Shown one piece after another: positions 3,823 through 37,928 of a DNA stretch of 64,000 nt. Numbering within the stretch: position 1 is the stretch's first letter; every line of letters begins with the position of its first letter. The translations under genes and the position numbers were made by a program. Source of the stretch: Verrucomicrobiia bacterium. GTDB lineage: Bacteria; Verrucomicrobiota; Verrucomicrobiia; Verrucomicrobiales; DEV007. Where the stretch lies: assembly GCA_030425385.1 (NCBI GenBank), contig JAUIAH010000043.1:1-64000 (forward strand), given 5' to 3'. The notes below the pieces were generated by a model. The model saw only the letters and a list, made by a program, of their open reading frames with translations. It had not been told where the DNA came from and did no database searches.

Positions 3823-4923
3823 ATGAACATTTCGACGCTTTTCATGGGTTTGGCGATTGCACTGCTTTCCCTCACATCGGCCTTTGGGAAGATTCCAGAA
3901 GAGAGGCTTGCCGTTCTCCTTGATGCAATCGTCGATGAGGTGGAAGAATGGCCACTCTCTGAGATGGAACAACGCCTAAACGAATGCTTGCAAGCGCGTT
4001 CCAATGTGGAGTTGAGGTCCATTGAGGGTGATCCCCACATGCCAGAGATCATGTTTGCTGCGGAGCTTCATCTCGGAGAGGCTCTTTTGAAAGGGGTTCC
4101 AATTGAGAGTGAGCGAGAGTATCAGGAAGTGGTTCGCTTTGTGACTGGGTGGGATCGATTGGGGCGGGAAGCGCGAGAATCGACTTTGGCGGCTGAGGTC
4201 ATTCGATCGATCGTGGCGACGCGTGCACGCAACCACGAGAGGCGGCGCTATGACTTCTTCATTCTTGGAGCCGTGATTGATTGGACCGGGTCGGAAGCCG
4301 AGCATGTATCGCTGGGTGCGTGTTTTGGAGCAGATTCAGGTTTCGACTGGGATGAACTATACTCTAGTAAAAGTGTGTTTTATCAGTTGTTTGCCCTCCA
4401 GGTGTCCCCCGAGGTGATTGAGGATACGGATCGATTGGCAAGCATCGCCCACGAAGCGATTGACCGTGAGTATTCCTGTTTTGAGACCGCAGGCTATCGA
4501 ATCATTGCACAATCAGACATTTCAAATGATGAGAAGGTTGAGCACCTCAAGAATGCGATCAAGCGAAACGGTTGGCCAGTTGATGATGGTTCTCATTTCT
4601 CGGTACATCAAGGCTGGGATATCAATCAGGGGATTGCTGGAGGCTATTCGCCTGGGACGCAACTGACGAATTTGACAGGAGATCCGAGTTGGCGGGCGAA
4701 GGAGCCACAGACGGATTGGAGAGTGAAAGAGAGGCGAAAGGCGAAGCAATTGGACAGATTGTTGGGCGATCAGCGGAAGCGCCGTGTGACAAGAATGTTG
4801 TCTTGGATGGCCGTTGGTTTGACTCTCATGGTGTTTTGTTGGGTTGGCTACCGCCGCTTCGGCGTGAAACGGGGACAGGCCAGCGGCGTGGTAGGTGCTT
4901 CTACTGAGGGCGGATCAGCATAG
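3823..4923 (+). CDS. Hypothetical protein with signal peptide and C-terminal membrane anchor
   Basis: Family not recognised. A signal peptide (ISTLFMGLAIALLSLTSAFG) leads into about 290 mostly helical, acidic residues. A strongly basic stretch (VKERRKAKQLDRLLGDQRKRR) comes next, then a membrane helix (LSWMAVGLTLMVFCWVGY) and a cytoplasmic tail of about 20 residues. The basic residues before the helix could complicate the topology. It is the last gene of the AT-richer block, is convergent with dnaE2 (170 bp between stops), and no hairpin terminator is obvious there. Confidence 0.75.
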   Translation: MNISTLFMGLAIALLSLTSAFGKIPEERLAVLLDAIVDEVEEWPLSEMEQRLNECLQARSNVELRSIEGDPHMPEIMFAAELHLGEALLKGVPIESEREYQEVVRFVTGWDRLGREARESTLAAEVIRSIVATRARNHERRRYDFFILGAVIDWTGSEAEHVSLGACFGADSGFDWDELYSSKSVFYQLFALQVSPEVIEDTDRLASIAHEAIDREYSCFETAGYRIIAQSDISNDEKVEHLKNAIKRNGWPVDDGSHFSVHQGWDINQGIAGGYSPGTQLTNLTGDPSWRAKEPQTDWRVKERRKAKQLDRLLGDQRKRRVTRMLSWMAVGLTLMVFCWVGYRRFGVKRGQASGVVGASTEGGSA

Positions 4924-32855: not shown

Positions 32856-34370
32856 ATGCTTCCTCAGCTCGAGCCTCTCGACACGCACAATCGAAAGCTC
32901 CAGTCCCACGTACACCCAGAGGACTGGCAGAATCCGACACCTGATGGCCCATACAATATCGTCGTCATCGGAGGCGGCACGGCCGGACTGGTGACGGCGG
33001 CTGGCGCGGCCGGTTTAGGCGCCAAAGTCGCTCTCATCGAGAGAGATTTGTTAGGAGGCGATTGCCTCAATGTAGGCTGTGTGCCCTCAAAGGCTCTCAT
33101 CGCCTCCGCCCGCCGTGCCGCCCAGGTACGCGAGGCGGCCGCCTTTGTGATTCACCGTCCATCAGACGTTGCGATTGATTTCCCTCACGTGATGGAGCGC
33201 TTGCGGCGACTCCGGGCCGACATCAGTCCGCATGATTCCGCCCAACGCTTCCGCGACCTCGGTATCGATGTCTTTCTCGGAGGCGGTCGATTCATCGATG
33301 CTCACACCGTCGCTGTGGGTGACCAACGACTCCCCTTCAAGAAGGCCTGCATTGCCACCGGAGCTCGCGCTTCCGCTCCCCCGATCAAGGGCCTTGATTC
33401 GATCCATTATCTGACGAACGAAACGCTATTCTCCCTTACCGACTTGCCTCAACGCCTAGGTATCGTCGGCGCAGGCCCTATCGGCTGCGAGATGGCGCAG
33501 AGCTTCGCCAGATTAGGTGCGGAAGTCTTTCTCATCGAATCCTCTGCTGGGGTGCTCCCGCGAGAAGACCCCAAGGCCGCGTCCCTCATCCAATCGGCGT
33601 TGGAACGTGACGGCGTCCATCTCCTCTGCTGCGGACGCGAGCTTGTCGTGAGCCCAGCCGAAGGCGATCGCGTCCGGCTGCGTGTCGATGTTAGGGGAAA
33701 GAGATACGACGAAGTGGTCGATGAGCTCCTCGTCGCGGTGGGGCGCGCCCCCAATGTCGAAGGGCTCGGTCTTGAAGCGATTGGGATCGACCACAGCGCA
33801 AAGGGGATCATCGTCAATCCCAAGCAACAGACCTCAGTGCCTCACATTTATGCGGCAGGCGATGTCTGTTCTCCCTATCAGTTCACGCATGCTGCCGATT
33901 TCATGGCTCGCAACGTCATCCGCAACGCACTTTTCATGGGCCGAGCGAAATCCGATGCCCTTATCATTCCCTGGTGCACCTACACGGAACCCGAGCTCGC
34001 CCACGTGGGCCTGACAGCGAAACAGGCTCAGGCGGACGGCATCGCCATCGATACCTTCACCCAACCGCTCTCTGGCGTGGACCGTGCGATTCTGTCAGAG
34101 GAGACCGAGGGCTTTGTCACGGTGCATGTGCGTAAAGGGAAAGATCGCATTGTGGGAGCCACCATCGTCGCCCCGCACGCAGGCGACATGATCGGCGAGA
34201 TTGTTCTCGCCATGAATCACAACATTGGCCTGGGCCAGATCGCCAACACCATTCATCCCTACCCCACCATCGGCGAAGCCATCCGGAAAGTCGGCGATCT
34301 CTATAACAAGACGCGCCTCACGCCAACCGTGGCCAAGCTCATGGCCAAGTGGCTCCAATGGAGTCGGTGA
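32856..34370 (+). CDS. FAD-dependent pyridine nucleotide-disulfide oxidoreductase (mercuric-reductase-like)
   Basis: A 504-residue flavoenzyme of the dihydrolipoamide/mercuric reductase family. It has the FAD-binding GGGTAGLVTAAG, the redox-active disulfide CLNVGCVPSK, a second nucleotide-binding GAGPIGCEMAQ, AAGDV and the C-terminal dimer interface with HPYPTIGEA, where His-x-x-Pro-Thr aids catalysis. It lacks both the N-terminal heavy-metal-associated domain and the C-terminal Cys pair of true MerA, so mercury reduction is unlikely; the substrate is unknown. It is the last gene of the DedA-DUF547 operon. Confidence 0.92.
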   Translation: MLPQLEPLDTHNRKLQSHVHPEDWQNPTPDGPYNIVVIGGGTAGLVTAAGAAGLGAKVALIERDLLGGDCLNVGCVPSKALIASARRAAQVREAAAFVIHRPSDVAIDFPHVMERLRRLRADISPHDSAQRFRDLGIDVFLGGGRFIDAHTVAVGDQRLPFKKACIATGARASAPPIKGLDSIHYLTNETLFSLTDLPQRLGIVGAGPIGCEMAQSFARLGAEVFLIESSAGVLPREDPKAASLIQSALERDGVHLLCCGRELVVSPAEGDRVRLRVDVRGKRYDEVVDELLVAVGRAPNVEGLGLEAIGIDHSAKGIIVNPKQQTSVPHIYAAGDVCSPYQFTHAADFMARNVIRNALFMGRAKSDALIIPWCTYTEPELAHVGLTAKQAQADGIAIDTFTQPLSGVDRAILSEETEGFVTVHVRKGKDRIVGATIVAPHAGDMIGEIVLAMNHNIGLGQIANTIHPYPTIGEAIRKVGDLYNKTRLTPTVAKLMAKWLQWSR

Positions 34371-34449
34371 TCGTCGGGATGGATGGAAACGCTGAACAAC
34401 CTTCTCGCGACCCTTCAGGCCGCGAATGTGCACGCCCGCCGGGATGCAG

Positions 34450-34549
34450 GGGGGCTGAAGGCCCCAGAGAGCTTAGCCCAAGGCTTCAGCCTTGGGGCCC
34501 ATCGGGTGCCCAAGATTGGCGGCCTGAAAGGTCGCGAGAATCGTTCTGA
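34450..34549. repeat. 100-bp interspersed repeat, copy A
   Basis: About 95% identical to 34825-34924 (five mismatches, all within 34505-34512). It contains a GGGGCTGAAGGCCCC hairpin and a 20-bp near-perfect palindrome CCCAAGGCTTCAGCCTTGGG (34477-34496), and ends with GGCCTGAAAGGTCGCGAG. Confidence 0.9.
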
Positions 34550-34629
34550 GCTTCTAGACGCATGGCCATTGCCGTTCCCTTCCATTCTGGGATACCCCTC
34601 GCGACCCTTCAGGCCGCATTCTTCCTCTC

Positions 34630-34773
34630 CATCGTATCCCAAGGCTGAAGCCTTGGGCTTGACTCTTGCGACCCTTCAGGCCGCGAAGGGCGCGCTGACC
34701 TGCAATCAATCTTCCCCCAACCGCATCCCAAGGCTGAAGTGGGCTTGGCTATTGCGATCCTTCAGGCCGCGAA
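34630..34773. repeat. Two degenerate copies of a related unit, opposite orientation
   Basis: Two units run 34638-34687 and 34727-34773. Each begins CCCAAGGCTGAAG and ends with CCTTCAGGCCGCGAAGG. The first keeps the full 20-bp palindrome (34638-34657); the second has lost a few bases of its right arm. The end core also occurs at 34404-34426 and 34598-34617. It is the reverse complement of the end of copies A and B. Confidence 0.8.
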
Positions 34774-34824
34774 GGGCGCACGCTCGCCGGGATGTGGATG
34801 CGATCGGAGGGGTTTCCAACAGGC

Positions 34825-34924
34825 GGGGGCTGAAGGCCCCAGAGAGCTTAGCCCAAGGCTTCAGCCTTGGGGCCCATCGGACGTCCCGGATTGGCGGCCT
34901 GAAAGGTCGCGAGAATCGTTCTGA
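34825..34924. repeat. 100-bp interspersed repeat, copy B
   Basis: Same orientation as copy A, offset exactly 375 bp. The palindrome lies at 34852-34871. Flanking bases just upstream (GCACGCTCGCCGGGATG) also resemble those upstream of copy A, so the duplicated module is longer than 100 bp. Confidence 0.9.
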
Positions 34925-35111
34925 CGCTCTGATTGGTTGGCGTTCTGGCCATCCTACGCGCTCTGTTAGGCCGATCACTACCGGACGTTCAACTTCAACC
35001 CACGACTCCTTCGGAAAAGGCTTGCCTCGCCAGAGCACCCGCCAGATCCTCCCCGGGGCCATTGTTCTTGAAATTTAAAGTTTTTATGATCCCGATATTA
35101 AATCTCTCTAA

Positions 35112-37928
35112 ATGAAGACCCATCCATCACCCAATCGTCTCGCGCTGGTGAGTCTCGCCGCCTGTGGCGCCCTCCTCGCTCCCGCTTCTGGCCAAGCGCC
35201 GCCTGCTTCTGCGGCCAAGAAATCGCCATTCCCTCCGCCTGCCGAGGTCTTGAAGGATCACCAGAAGGTGGTCTCCACCATGGACGGCAAGAGCCTCTAC
35301 AATCTCTATATCGAGCCGAAGACCCATCAGATGTTGGCAGAGCTGCCCAAGGACTTCGCCAATCAGAAGCACTTCATTGCGCTGACGATTGCAAGCGGCG
35401 AGGACTACGCAGGCTTGCAGGCCGGTGACGTTTACGTCCGGTGGCAAGTCTACAATCAAAAGCGCCTCGCCCTCATCCAGCCACAATTGGAAACACGCTC
35501 CACGGGCGATGAGGAGTCGAAGAATTCGGTCAAACGGCTCTTCACCGACAAGGTCATTCTCGATGTGCCGATTCTGACGTATCAGAACAAAGGCGGCCCG
35601 ATCATCGACCTCGACGCCCTTCTCCTTGGAAACGCGACCAAGTTCTTTGGCAATGCCGTTTCTGGCCTCAACAATCGTCTCTTCAAGGTGAAACAGCTGA
35701 AAGCGTTTCCCGAGAATGTCGAGATCGCGCTGGAAGTGCCCATTCGCGGCCAACTCAAAGTCTTGCATTATTCCATCAAACTCATCACACCTAACAAGGA
35801 GTATAAGCCGCGCTTGGCGGACGAACGGGTGGGCTATTTCACGACCAATTATCGCGACTTCGGGAAATTTGAACCTGGAGAAACGCGGACGCGCTACATC
35901 AATCGCTGGCATTTGCAGAAGGCCGATCCCAATCTGGAACTAAGCCCGCCGAAGAAACCGATCGTGTTCTATATCGAACACACCACACCCATCCGCTATC
36001 GCCGTTGGGTTGCTCAAGGCGTGCAAGCATGGAATGCAGCTTTTGAGAAGGTCGGCATCGTCAATGCGATCGAGGTCCGTTTCCAAGATGCCAAGTCGAG
36101 ACAGTACATGGACCTCGATCCAGAGGATGCCCGCTATAACTTTGTGCGCTGGCTCAACAATGGCGTGGGCACGGCTATCGGACCCAGCCGGGTCAATCCT
36201 GAGACGGGAGAAATCCTCGATGCTGACATTATCCTCACGGATGGTTGGATCCGGCATTGGTGGACGCAATACAAAGAAATCTTACCGCAAGTCGCCATGG
36301 AAGGCTACACGCCCGAGACCCTGGCGTGGTTGGAACGCAATCCCCGTTGGGACCCACGGGTGCGCCTCGCCAGCCCCACGAAACGCGAGGAAATCCTGCG
36401 TCAGCGGGCCGAGCAAGGAGCTACCCCCATGGGCGGCCATCCTATCGCCAAGGTGGATCACACCCTTATTGGCGACCAAGAATTTGATGGTCTCGCCGGA
36501 CGAATCAGTCAGGTGAATGGCCTCTGCATGGCGGCCAATTGCAAGACTCATGGCCTCGCCGATATGCACATGTTGTCAACAATTCTCGCCAGCGAATCAG
36601 CCGATAACGATGACAATGGCGATGATGACGATGATAAGAAAGAGGAAGACAAGCCGAAGGAACAAATGCTCGATGGCATCCCCGAGTCGTTCATCGGACC
36701 TTTGTTAGTCGATCTCGTCGCGCATGAAGTTGGTCACACGCTTGGATTGCGCCACAACTTCAAGGCGAGCGCCATCTATGACTATGATGAAATCAATTCG
36801 GAAGCATTGAAAGGTAAGAAACCCTTCGCCAGCTCCGTGATGGATTACATCCCCGTCAATATGCGAGTGAAGGGCGGTGAGGTGCAGGGCGACTATGGCA
36901 TGATCGGCGTGGGTCCCTACGACGAATGGGCGATCGAGTATGGCTACACTTTCGCCAAGGATTTGAAGCCCATTCTCAAGCGCGCCGGAGAACCCCTCCT
37001 GCAATACGCCACCGATGAAGATACCTTCGGACCCGATCCCCTCGCCCGCCGCTACGACTTTGGCAAAGATCCCTTGGATTATGCCAAAGATCAGGTTGCC
37101 CTGGCCGAGGAGAATCGCAGCAAGATCCTCGACAAATTCGTCAAGGATGGTCAGAGCTGGTCGCACGCACGTCGTGGCTACCTTCTCACCCTCCGCGCGC
37201 AAATGCGCGCCGTCAGCATGATGGCTAACTGGATTGGGGGTGCCCACGTTTCCCGTGCTAAGAAGGGCGACTCTGACAAAGCGCCCTTGGAAGTCGTCTC
37301 CGCAGAGAAGCAACGTAAGGCCCTCCAGTTCGTCATCGACCACGCCTTCGACTCCGAATCTTTCGGCCTGTCTCCAAAGTTGCTCAGCCACATGACCCTC
37401 GACAAATGGTATGGCGAGCCTTCCTACGCGGAAGATCCTACCTGGCCAGTGCACGATGAGATTCTCGGCATCCAGGCGAGCGCCCTGACGTCTCTGATGA
37501 ATCCCTCCACGCTCATGCGCCTCTACGACAACGAGTTCCGCGTGCCCGCGAGTGAAGACGCCTTGACCCTACCAGAGTTGTTATCAACGCTTACCAAGTC
37601 CATTTGGAAACAATTGGACGATATCGATGAGGATGCGGAATACACCGCACGCAAGCCTCTCATTGGAAGCCTCGATCGCAATCTCCAGCGAGAGTATGTC
37701 CTGCGGCTTACCGATCTCATCAGTCCCGATGCTGGATTCACGGCTGCGCACAAGCCGATCTATGACCTCGCAAGCGCCGAACTCCGCAGCTTGGCGAAAC
37801 AGTTAGAAGAGCTCCACGAGCTGGACAACCTGGATCCTTACACCAAGGCGCACACCTGCGAGACGCAGCGCCTCATTGAGAAGTCTCTCGATGCCAATGT
37901 GATCCTGGAAGTGAAGAGCGGCCTCTAA
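35112..37928 (+). CDS. Secreted zinc-dependent metalloprotease (metzincin-like, DUF5117 type)
   Basis: A 938-residue exported protease. After the signal peptide (LVSLAACGALLAPASG) come beta-rich N-terminal domains of the DUF5118/DUF5117 kind (FIALTIASGEDYAGLQAGDV, FTTNYRDFG). The catalytic domain contains HEVGHTLGLRHN near residues 537-548, a full metzincin zinc site with the catalytic Glu, and SVMDYIP as Met-turn. A C-terminal helical domain follows. Just before the zinc site is an insert of almost only Asp, Asn, Glu and Lys (about residues 495-518), perhaps a calcium-dependent or flexible loop. It stands alone after the repeat zone, and a bidirectional terminator follows it. Confidence 0.92.
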   Translation: MKTHPSPNRLALVSLAACGALLAPASGQAPPASAAKKSPFPPPAEVLKDHQKVVSTMDGKSLYNLYIEPKTHQMLAELPKDFANQKHFIALTIASGEDYAGLQAGDVYVRWQVYNQKRLALIQPQLETRSTGDEESKNSVKRLFTDKVILDVPILTYQNKGGPIIDLDALLLGNATKFFGNAVSGLNNRLFKVKQLKAFPENVEIALEVPIRGQLKVLHYSIKLITPNKEYKPRLADERVGYFTTNYRDFGKFEPGETRTRYINRWHLQKADPNLELSPPKKPIVFYIEHTTPIRYRRWVAQGVQAWNAAFEKVGIVNAIEVRFQDAKSRQYMDLDPEDARYNFVRWLNNGVGTAIGPSRVNPETGEILDADIILTDGWIRHWWTQYKEILPQVAMEGYTPETLAWLERNPRWDPRVRLASPTKREEILRQRAEQGATPMGGHPIAKVDHTLIGDQEFDGLAGRISQVNGLCMAANCKTHGLADMHMLSTILASESADNDDNGDDDDDKKEEDKPKEQMLDGIPESFIGPLLVDLVAHEVGHTLGLRHNFKASAIYDYDEINSEALKGKKPFASSVMDYIPVNMRVKGGEVQGDYGMIGVGPYDEWAIEYGYTFAKDLKPILKRAGEPLLQYATDEDTFGPDPLARRYDFGKDPLDYAKDQVALAEENRSKILDKFVKDGQSWSHARRGYLLTLRAQMRAVSMMANWIGGAHVSRAKKGDSDKAPLEVVSAEKQRKALQFVIDHAFDSESFGLSPKLLSHMTLDKWYGEPSYAEDPTWPVHDEILGIQASALTSLMNPSTLMRLYDNEFRVPASEDALTLPELLSTLTKSIWKQLDDIDEDAEYTARKPLIGSLDRNLQREYVLRLTDLISPDAGFTAAHKPIYDLASAELRSLAKQLEELHELDNLDPYTKAHTCETQRLIEKSLDANVILEVKSGL

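Follow-up and report, generated by a model that had tools for sequence, protein, structure and literature searches.

In REPtrons, hairpins of the REP, BIME and REPIN kinds are dispersed through intergenic DNA, form inverted pairs and clusters, and surround a single Y1 transposase gene, that of TnpA-REP (RAYT), with NTAG at the hairpin foot (PMC2817692, PMC3116915, PMC8266576). In REPs the guide is a GTAG that stands on the 5' side, where the hairpin begins (PMC8266576). The REPtrons studied so far have a class 2 TnpA with the motif Y-xx-NP. TIRtrons (Di Nocera et al. 2013, PMC3733652) consist of Y1 genes between inverted repeats, some of which are double palindromes; these repeats may also form dispersed families, in part in Acidobacteria. 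Their marks include the TIRYT protein group and GGGGWSAS-bearing repeats, and that work does not connect them with Acido-Lenti-1. In the IS200/IS605 elements (ISHp608, ISDra2), the hairpins of the left and right ends lie on one and the same strand, and the tnpA unit is multi-copy and mobile. A survey of TnpA-Y1 proteins described a subclass 1.2 of low copy number, mostly from Cyanobacteria and Bacteroidetes, for which no REP was listed and which generally lacks IS200-type terminal structures (Quentin et al. 2018, PMC6006769). Finally, Rfam RF01687 (Acido-Lenti-1) has its entry as an sRNA found in Acidobacteria and Lentisphaerae; the 2010 survey called it a probable RNA that is not cis-regulatory (Weinberg et al. 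2010, PMC2864571).

The locus described here has the two-hairpin unit of Acido-Lenti-1, which behaves here like a repeated DNA element that is tied to a transposase and occurs in more phyla. It shares with REPtrons the dispersed intergenic hairpins, the inverted pairs and clusters and the single Y1 gene among them, and an NTAG seen beside the first hairpin in part of the loci recalls the REP guide; its TnpA, in contrast, is of class 1 (Y-xxx-Q-xx-HH), and each unit has two hairpins. The terminal inverted repeats typical of TIRtrons were found, by a model-free search, in 38 of 69 loci. With IS200/IS605 it shares the TnpA fold family and the HUH and Tyr motifs, but the copies on the two sides of tnpA are mainly inverted and point outward, and its own genome has a single tnpA and many solo elements, although paralogous units exist in some genomes. 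With subclass 1.2 it shares DHVH, WQ, Y-xxx-Q-xx-HH, a length of about 150 aa and low copy number; here, however, elements are present, and the hosts are PVC bacteria, Acidobacteria and others.

The repeat cluster in the window

The window is a stretch of 64,000 nt from a Verrucomicrobiia bacterium (contig JAUIAH010000043.1). Repeats fill 34402 to about 34924 of a gap between two co-directional genes, the first ending at 34370 and the second starting at 35112. The first-pass annotation had extended the cluster over 740 bp; the repeats do lie in this gap, but 34925-35111 carries no repeats. The description as palindromic repeats in both orientations was borne out: we located four 47-nt double hairpins, in both orientations, and two lone second hairpins between 34402 and 34916 (Table 1). 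The basic unit consists of a first hairpin with an 8-bp stem (SL1, CCCAAGGC-TGAA-GCCTTGGG), a linker of about 10-12 nt starting with CT and a second hairpin with a 5-bp stem (SL2, GCGACC-NTTCA-GGCCGC). A reading of SL2 as a UUCG RNA tetraloop was rejected because its register disrupts the stem.

Table 1. Features of the repeat cluster and its neighbours (window positions)
Feature	Position	Strand	Basis
Upstream neighbour, pyridine nucleotide-disulphide oxidoreductase gene (outside the element)	32856..34370	+	
Core copies	34393-34432, 34587-34626, 34654-34693, 34740-34779		Repeat comparison
Lone SL2 hairpin, GCGACCCTTCAGGCCGC	34407..34423	+	Sequence comparison, fold
100-nt unit, copy 1: double hairpin 34450-34496, then a further SL2 (about 34519-34538)	34450..34549	-	RF01687 35.2 bits; R1 57 bits (this sequence belongs to the R1 model itself)
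Lone SL2 hairpin	34598..34617	+	Repeat comparison
Complete double-hairpin element, SL1-linker-SL2	34638..34684	+	RF01687 35.8 bits, R1, fold
Element with damaged SL1	34727..34770	+	R1 31.6 bits
100-nt unit, copy 2: double hairpin 34825-34871 and a further SL2	34825..34924	-	95% identity to copy 1; RF01687, R1
Downstream neighbour, DUF5117/DUF4953 met-zincin gene (outside the element)	35112..37928	+	

Two of the four double hairpins lie within 100-nt units. These are the two copies of a 100-bp element noticed earlier; they are direct copies of each other, and the shorter relatives said to be inverted are indeed the elements on the other strand. The SL2 at 34402 and the stretch 34515-34540 form a 26-nt inverted repeat (92% complementary) that encloses a 139-nt REPIN-like unit. 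The repeated cores are present in four copies, but the exact 18-mer CGACCCTTCAGGCCGCGA occurs in two of them (near 34408 and 34668) and is altered in the other two. What had been taken for a 20-bp palindrome present three times does recur, but proved to be a hairpin, CCCAAGGCTTCAGCCTTGGG, whose 8-bp stem closes a 4-nt loop. It is found at 34477 and 34852; the copy at 34638 is its reverse complement, and in the one at 34727 an arm is partly missing.

The repeats of the window are beyond chance: the 741 bp match 79 places in the bacterium's own genome, the DNA fold of 34402-34541 has a z of -7.5 and the RNA fold of the whole gap a z of -8.1. Neither terminator-like nor promoter-like sites were found in the window repeats, for which a possible action on the two adjacent genes as RNA stems had been suggested, and a plasmid search gave no match. 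The zone had been described as lacking any gene, and the ORFs of 231 and 118 aa across it are made up of repeat. These ORFs could be taken as traces of a degraded gene or of a simple local duplication with no wider meaning. The genome-wide matches already refute this; covariation and recurrence next to tnpA across phyla (below) also speak against it, and the explanation is extremely improbable. Long spurious ORFs arise from the repeats at window:34383-35078 (+), L024:2927-3493 (-) and L024:1783-2607 (-); they hold recurring peptides such as GLKGREN and QGFSLG, and gene callers may call them proteins.

The element matches RF01687. Window copies scored 35.2-35.8 bits (E 7e-6 to 1e-5), slightly below the gathering score of 37 bits, and 13 other copies in the same genome exceed this cut-off, with a maximum of 49.5 bits. 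The suggestion that the family may be new is half right: it is not supported for the sequence, which is already catalogued; what appears to be new is the nature of the element and its partner enzyme. Full-text searches of papers available without subscription brought up none whose listing ties Acido-Lenti-1 to a transposase.

Dispersed copies and a likely partner transposase

Using R1, a covariance model built from own and related copies, we found 58 elements in the 8.0-Mb genome, arranged as inverted pairs and head-to-tail arrays. At C59:28710-29106 (L026:1711-2107), six near-identical elements stand head-to-tail at 70-bp spacing; the arrangement in the window is inverted instead. None of the 19 element clusters that were checked overlaps a predicted gene (simple hexamer gene predictor). 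Where both neighbouring genes were called (14 clusters), they were convergent in eight cases, tandem in six and divergent in none. Against a convergent background of 14%, taken from a small sample of 35 gene pairs, this gives p 2e-4 and is suggestive of a preference for convergent gene pairs, or gene 3' ends.

The best Y1_Tnp match of the genome is a 150-aa protein encoded at C25:70967-71419, with the motifs DHVH, WQ and YIRNQAEHH. It is the sole copy of its kind, and its gene lies inside the densest cluster: 11 of the 58 elements surround it, on either side and no more than about 0.5 kb away. Its scores (PF01797 96 bits and NF033573 69.7 bits, both above the cut-offs; PDB 2a6m E 8e-8) identify it, at the level of sequence, as a Y1/HUH enzyme and a relative of ISHp608 TnpA. 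A transposase of the RAYT/IS200 kind had been anticipated in the first-pass annotation. The expectation of a palindromic element with such a partner proved largely right: the IS200 part held, with the gene embedded in the elements; the RAYT part did not, as YIRNQAEHH is a class 1 motif and the class 2 motif Y-xx-NP is absent. Y-xx-NQ-xx-HH was found in 64 of 75 TnpA relatives, and the motifs DH[IV]H, WQ and Y-xxx-Q-xx-HH agree with subclass 1.2, an assignment made by motif and not by a tree. The genome (G000, e.g. L011-L023) also encodes an expanded family of more than 30 further Y1_Tnp proteins, mostly of about 345 aa, that match domain positions 7-68 only. We rejected these as partners of the element, having found no element around the 14 loci tested.

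To extend these observations, 80 TnpA relatives and their flanks were taken from one-per-species genomes. The unmodified RF01687 model, at its own cut-off, gave a match less than 500 bp from tnpA at 16 loci spread over several phyla, in a set whose last 20 sources had been picked partly for having R1 matches. The isolates Rhodopirellula europaea (L089) and planctomycete CA13 (L080), an acidobacterium (L090, 59 bits) and a member of the Bacteroidales (L096) are among them. Across the 80 loci, R1 matches became about 240-fold sparser away from tnpA: their density per kb was 3.19 at 0-150 bp, then 1.42, 0.75, 0.19 and 0.046 in successive intervals, and 0.013 at 2-5 kb. An element lay at most 500 bp from tnpA in 57/80 loci; part of these loci had been used in R1 training, and outside the training set the count was 48/71. 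The remaining 23 of the 80 had no R1 match within 500 bp. Elements flanked tnpA on both sides in 29 loci, and 59 of the 74 R1 matches within 150 bp were in outward-inverted orientation. In a second set, drawn from the bacterium's own family, elements were near tnpA in 18/29 loci. As a control, R1 was applied to 101 kb from 14 loci of other Y1 genes and 16 unrelated ones, and gave no match. The two-hairpin unit Acido-Lenti-1 is dispersed intergenically in the own genome and, in several phyla, flanks Y-xxx-Q-xx-HH TnpA genes.

In the model-free search, the inverted repeats bracketing tnpA had scores of at least 40. Control placements reached 40 at L058, L100 and L101 only, and 31 of the 69 TnpA loci had no strong inverted repeat. 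Several R1-negative loci (L087, L068, L094, L059 and others) have diverged double hairpins at the same place. In L059 and L068, the double hairpin that flanks tnpA (4001-4447) is a diverged one (GGCCCGCGGGCGATGCCCGCGGCTACGATGG...) missed by R1; at these two loci, the transposase and its element appear to have diverged in parallel.

Element and TnpA co-occur among 50 genomes of the family (Fisher p 0.0095, phylogeny uncontrolled), and all eight genomes with at least 10 RF01687 matches carry TnpA. Conversely, TnpA went unmatched in 7 of 27 element-carrying genomes, and RF01687 in 8 of the 28 genomes with TnpA, mismatches that may be explained in part by draft genomes and the strict model. Because many of the compared genomes are MAGs, some phylum labels may be wrong. 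The family genome G058 (6.4 Mb) has 71 RF01687 matches and six TnpA matches; many of its elements score an identical 41.6 bits, suggesting that they spread recently in a burst.

Differences between close genomes were found outside the window. Among related Roseiflexaceae, arrays around tnpA vary. In addition, one array directly follows a stop codon in G061 and G063 and is absent in G064, and the contig of G062 ends there. This quartet gave presence and absence; exact element ends and the target were not obtained. In two Planctomyces MAGs (L050:2650-3900, L051:2680-3880), the elements upstream of tnpA have multiplied into tandem units of roughly 400 bp, and the order of the unit copies differs between the two. 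L161/L164 was rejected as a moved unit: the flanks are homologous too, and the locus is therefore orthologous. For the window cluster, no clean empty site was found in genomes G002 and G003 of the same genus, because the flanking genes are on separate contigs and the DNA shares only some 70% identity.

An element pair with tnpA might also be an ordinary IS200/IS605 insertion sequence, the scattered elements being its remnants or MITE derivatives. The TnpA scores above the PF01797 and NF033573 cut-offs fit such a reading, as do two TnpA copies in G041 that are similar solely within the element-bounded unit, and the near-identical copies L109 and L112 within one genome. Against it stand the ratio of one tnpA to 58 elements in the own genome, flanking copies in inverted orientation, where left and right ends of one strand would be expected, and a subclass described without IS properties in the 2018 survey (PMC6006769). 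We consider it unlikely. The position of the elements beside one kind of small single-strand-DNA transposase in many bacterial phyla makes it most probable that they are short pieces of mobile DNA.

Hairpins of DNA or RNA

Both helices covary, with two-sided changes in 10 of 13 pairs (MAFFT alignment) and in 12 of 13 in a second set, whose alignment was fitted to the model. The changes are nearly always from one Watson-Crick pair to another; G-T cells numbered 2/413, 8/1755 and 5/615 in three alignments. Structured RNAs usually have far more G-U pairs. A-C mismatches, equivalent to G-T in the opposite strand, outnumbered G-T by 24 to 7 in alignment A2 (by locus and position); the ratio in alignment A3 was 9 to 4, which is not significant.

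The complementary strand gave the better DNA fold in 69 of 75 loci, a difference driven in large part by loop terms. On this strand, NTAG precedes SL1 in 41/59 loci (GTAG in 16, ATAG in 19), at the spot where REPs have their GTAG guide (PMC8266576); in the own genome the tetranucleotide by SL1 is often NNAG instead. SL2 has a C-GNA-G triloop, a loop known from very stable DNA mini-hairpins, in 31/59 loci on the same strand. As judged from the alignments, the scarcity of G-T, the strand preference of the fold, NTAG and the GNA triloop agree with one another, short of proof.

These data bear on the possibility that the element is a true structured ncRNA, either an sRNA or an mRNA 3'-end stem, only incidentally associated with a transposase. 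The RF01687 entry and the 2010 call of a probable RNA (PMC2864571) speak for an RNA, and so do the two-sided covariation, the preference for gene 3' ends and the strong RNA fold of the region. A DNA hairpin, however, yields identical covariation, and the near absence of G-U pairs speaks mildly against an RNA. The steep concentration of copies beside one transposase, repeated over many phyla, their occurrence in both orientations and in arrays, and a window copy without promoter or terminator signals argue in the same direction, and we regard an RNA gene as quite improbable.

A probable REPtron-like element of a class 1 TnpA

The cluster in the window is most likely a BIME-like group, made up of copies of a non-autonomous DNA element that resembles REPs and BIMEs and belongs to a class 1 (subclass 1.2) TnpA. 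The claim of a dispersed palindromic family was upheld by 58 intergenic elements and by copies in relatives and other phyla. Confinement to a single locus with absence from relatives, or descent from a degraded gene, had been named as outcomes that would tell against it; neither was found, copies being dispersed and present in relatives. The element probably acts like a REPtron and, because of its TnpA class, lies outside the classical RAYT REPtrons. We further lean towards Acido-Lenti-1 being a single-stranded DNA substrate, and not an RNA gene, of a distinct cross-phylum REPtron class, marked by a subclass 1.2 TnpA, two-hairpin outward inverted pairs, activity on the strand opposite to that of Rfam, an (N)TAG guide and, in the second hairpin, a GNA triloop.

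In the mechanism that we propose, the element would fold in a single-stranded stage, e.g. at the replication fork, and TnpA would recognise, in one of the strands, the hairpin together with its neighbouring (N)TAG. The tyrosine of TnpA would then cut and rejoin the element, as with TnpA-REP. Elements copied or moved in trans into intergenic DNA could accumulate there as tandem and inverted arrays, and any influence on neighbouring mRNA ends would be secondary.

For annotation, there is a warning in that such repeats may be recorded as sRNA genes or spurious proteins. The predicted biochemistry is testable with short oligonucleotides. An unexplained Rfam 'RNA' gains a likely identity as mobile DNA and a partner enzyme, and a Y1 subclass described without IS ends or REPs gains a likely substrate. 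The REPtron principle would thereby take in class 1 TnpA enzymes and reach many phyla, among them PVC bacteria, Acidobacteria and Bacteroidota.
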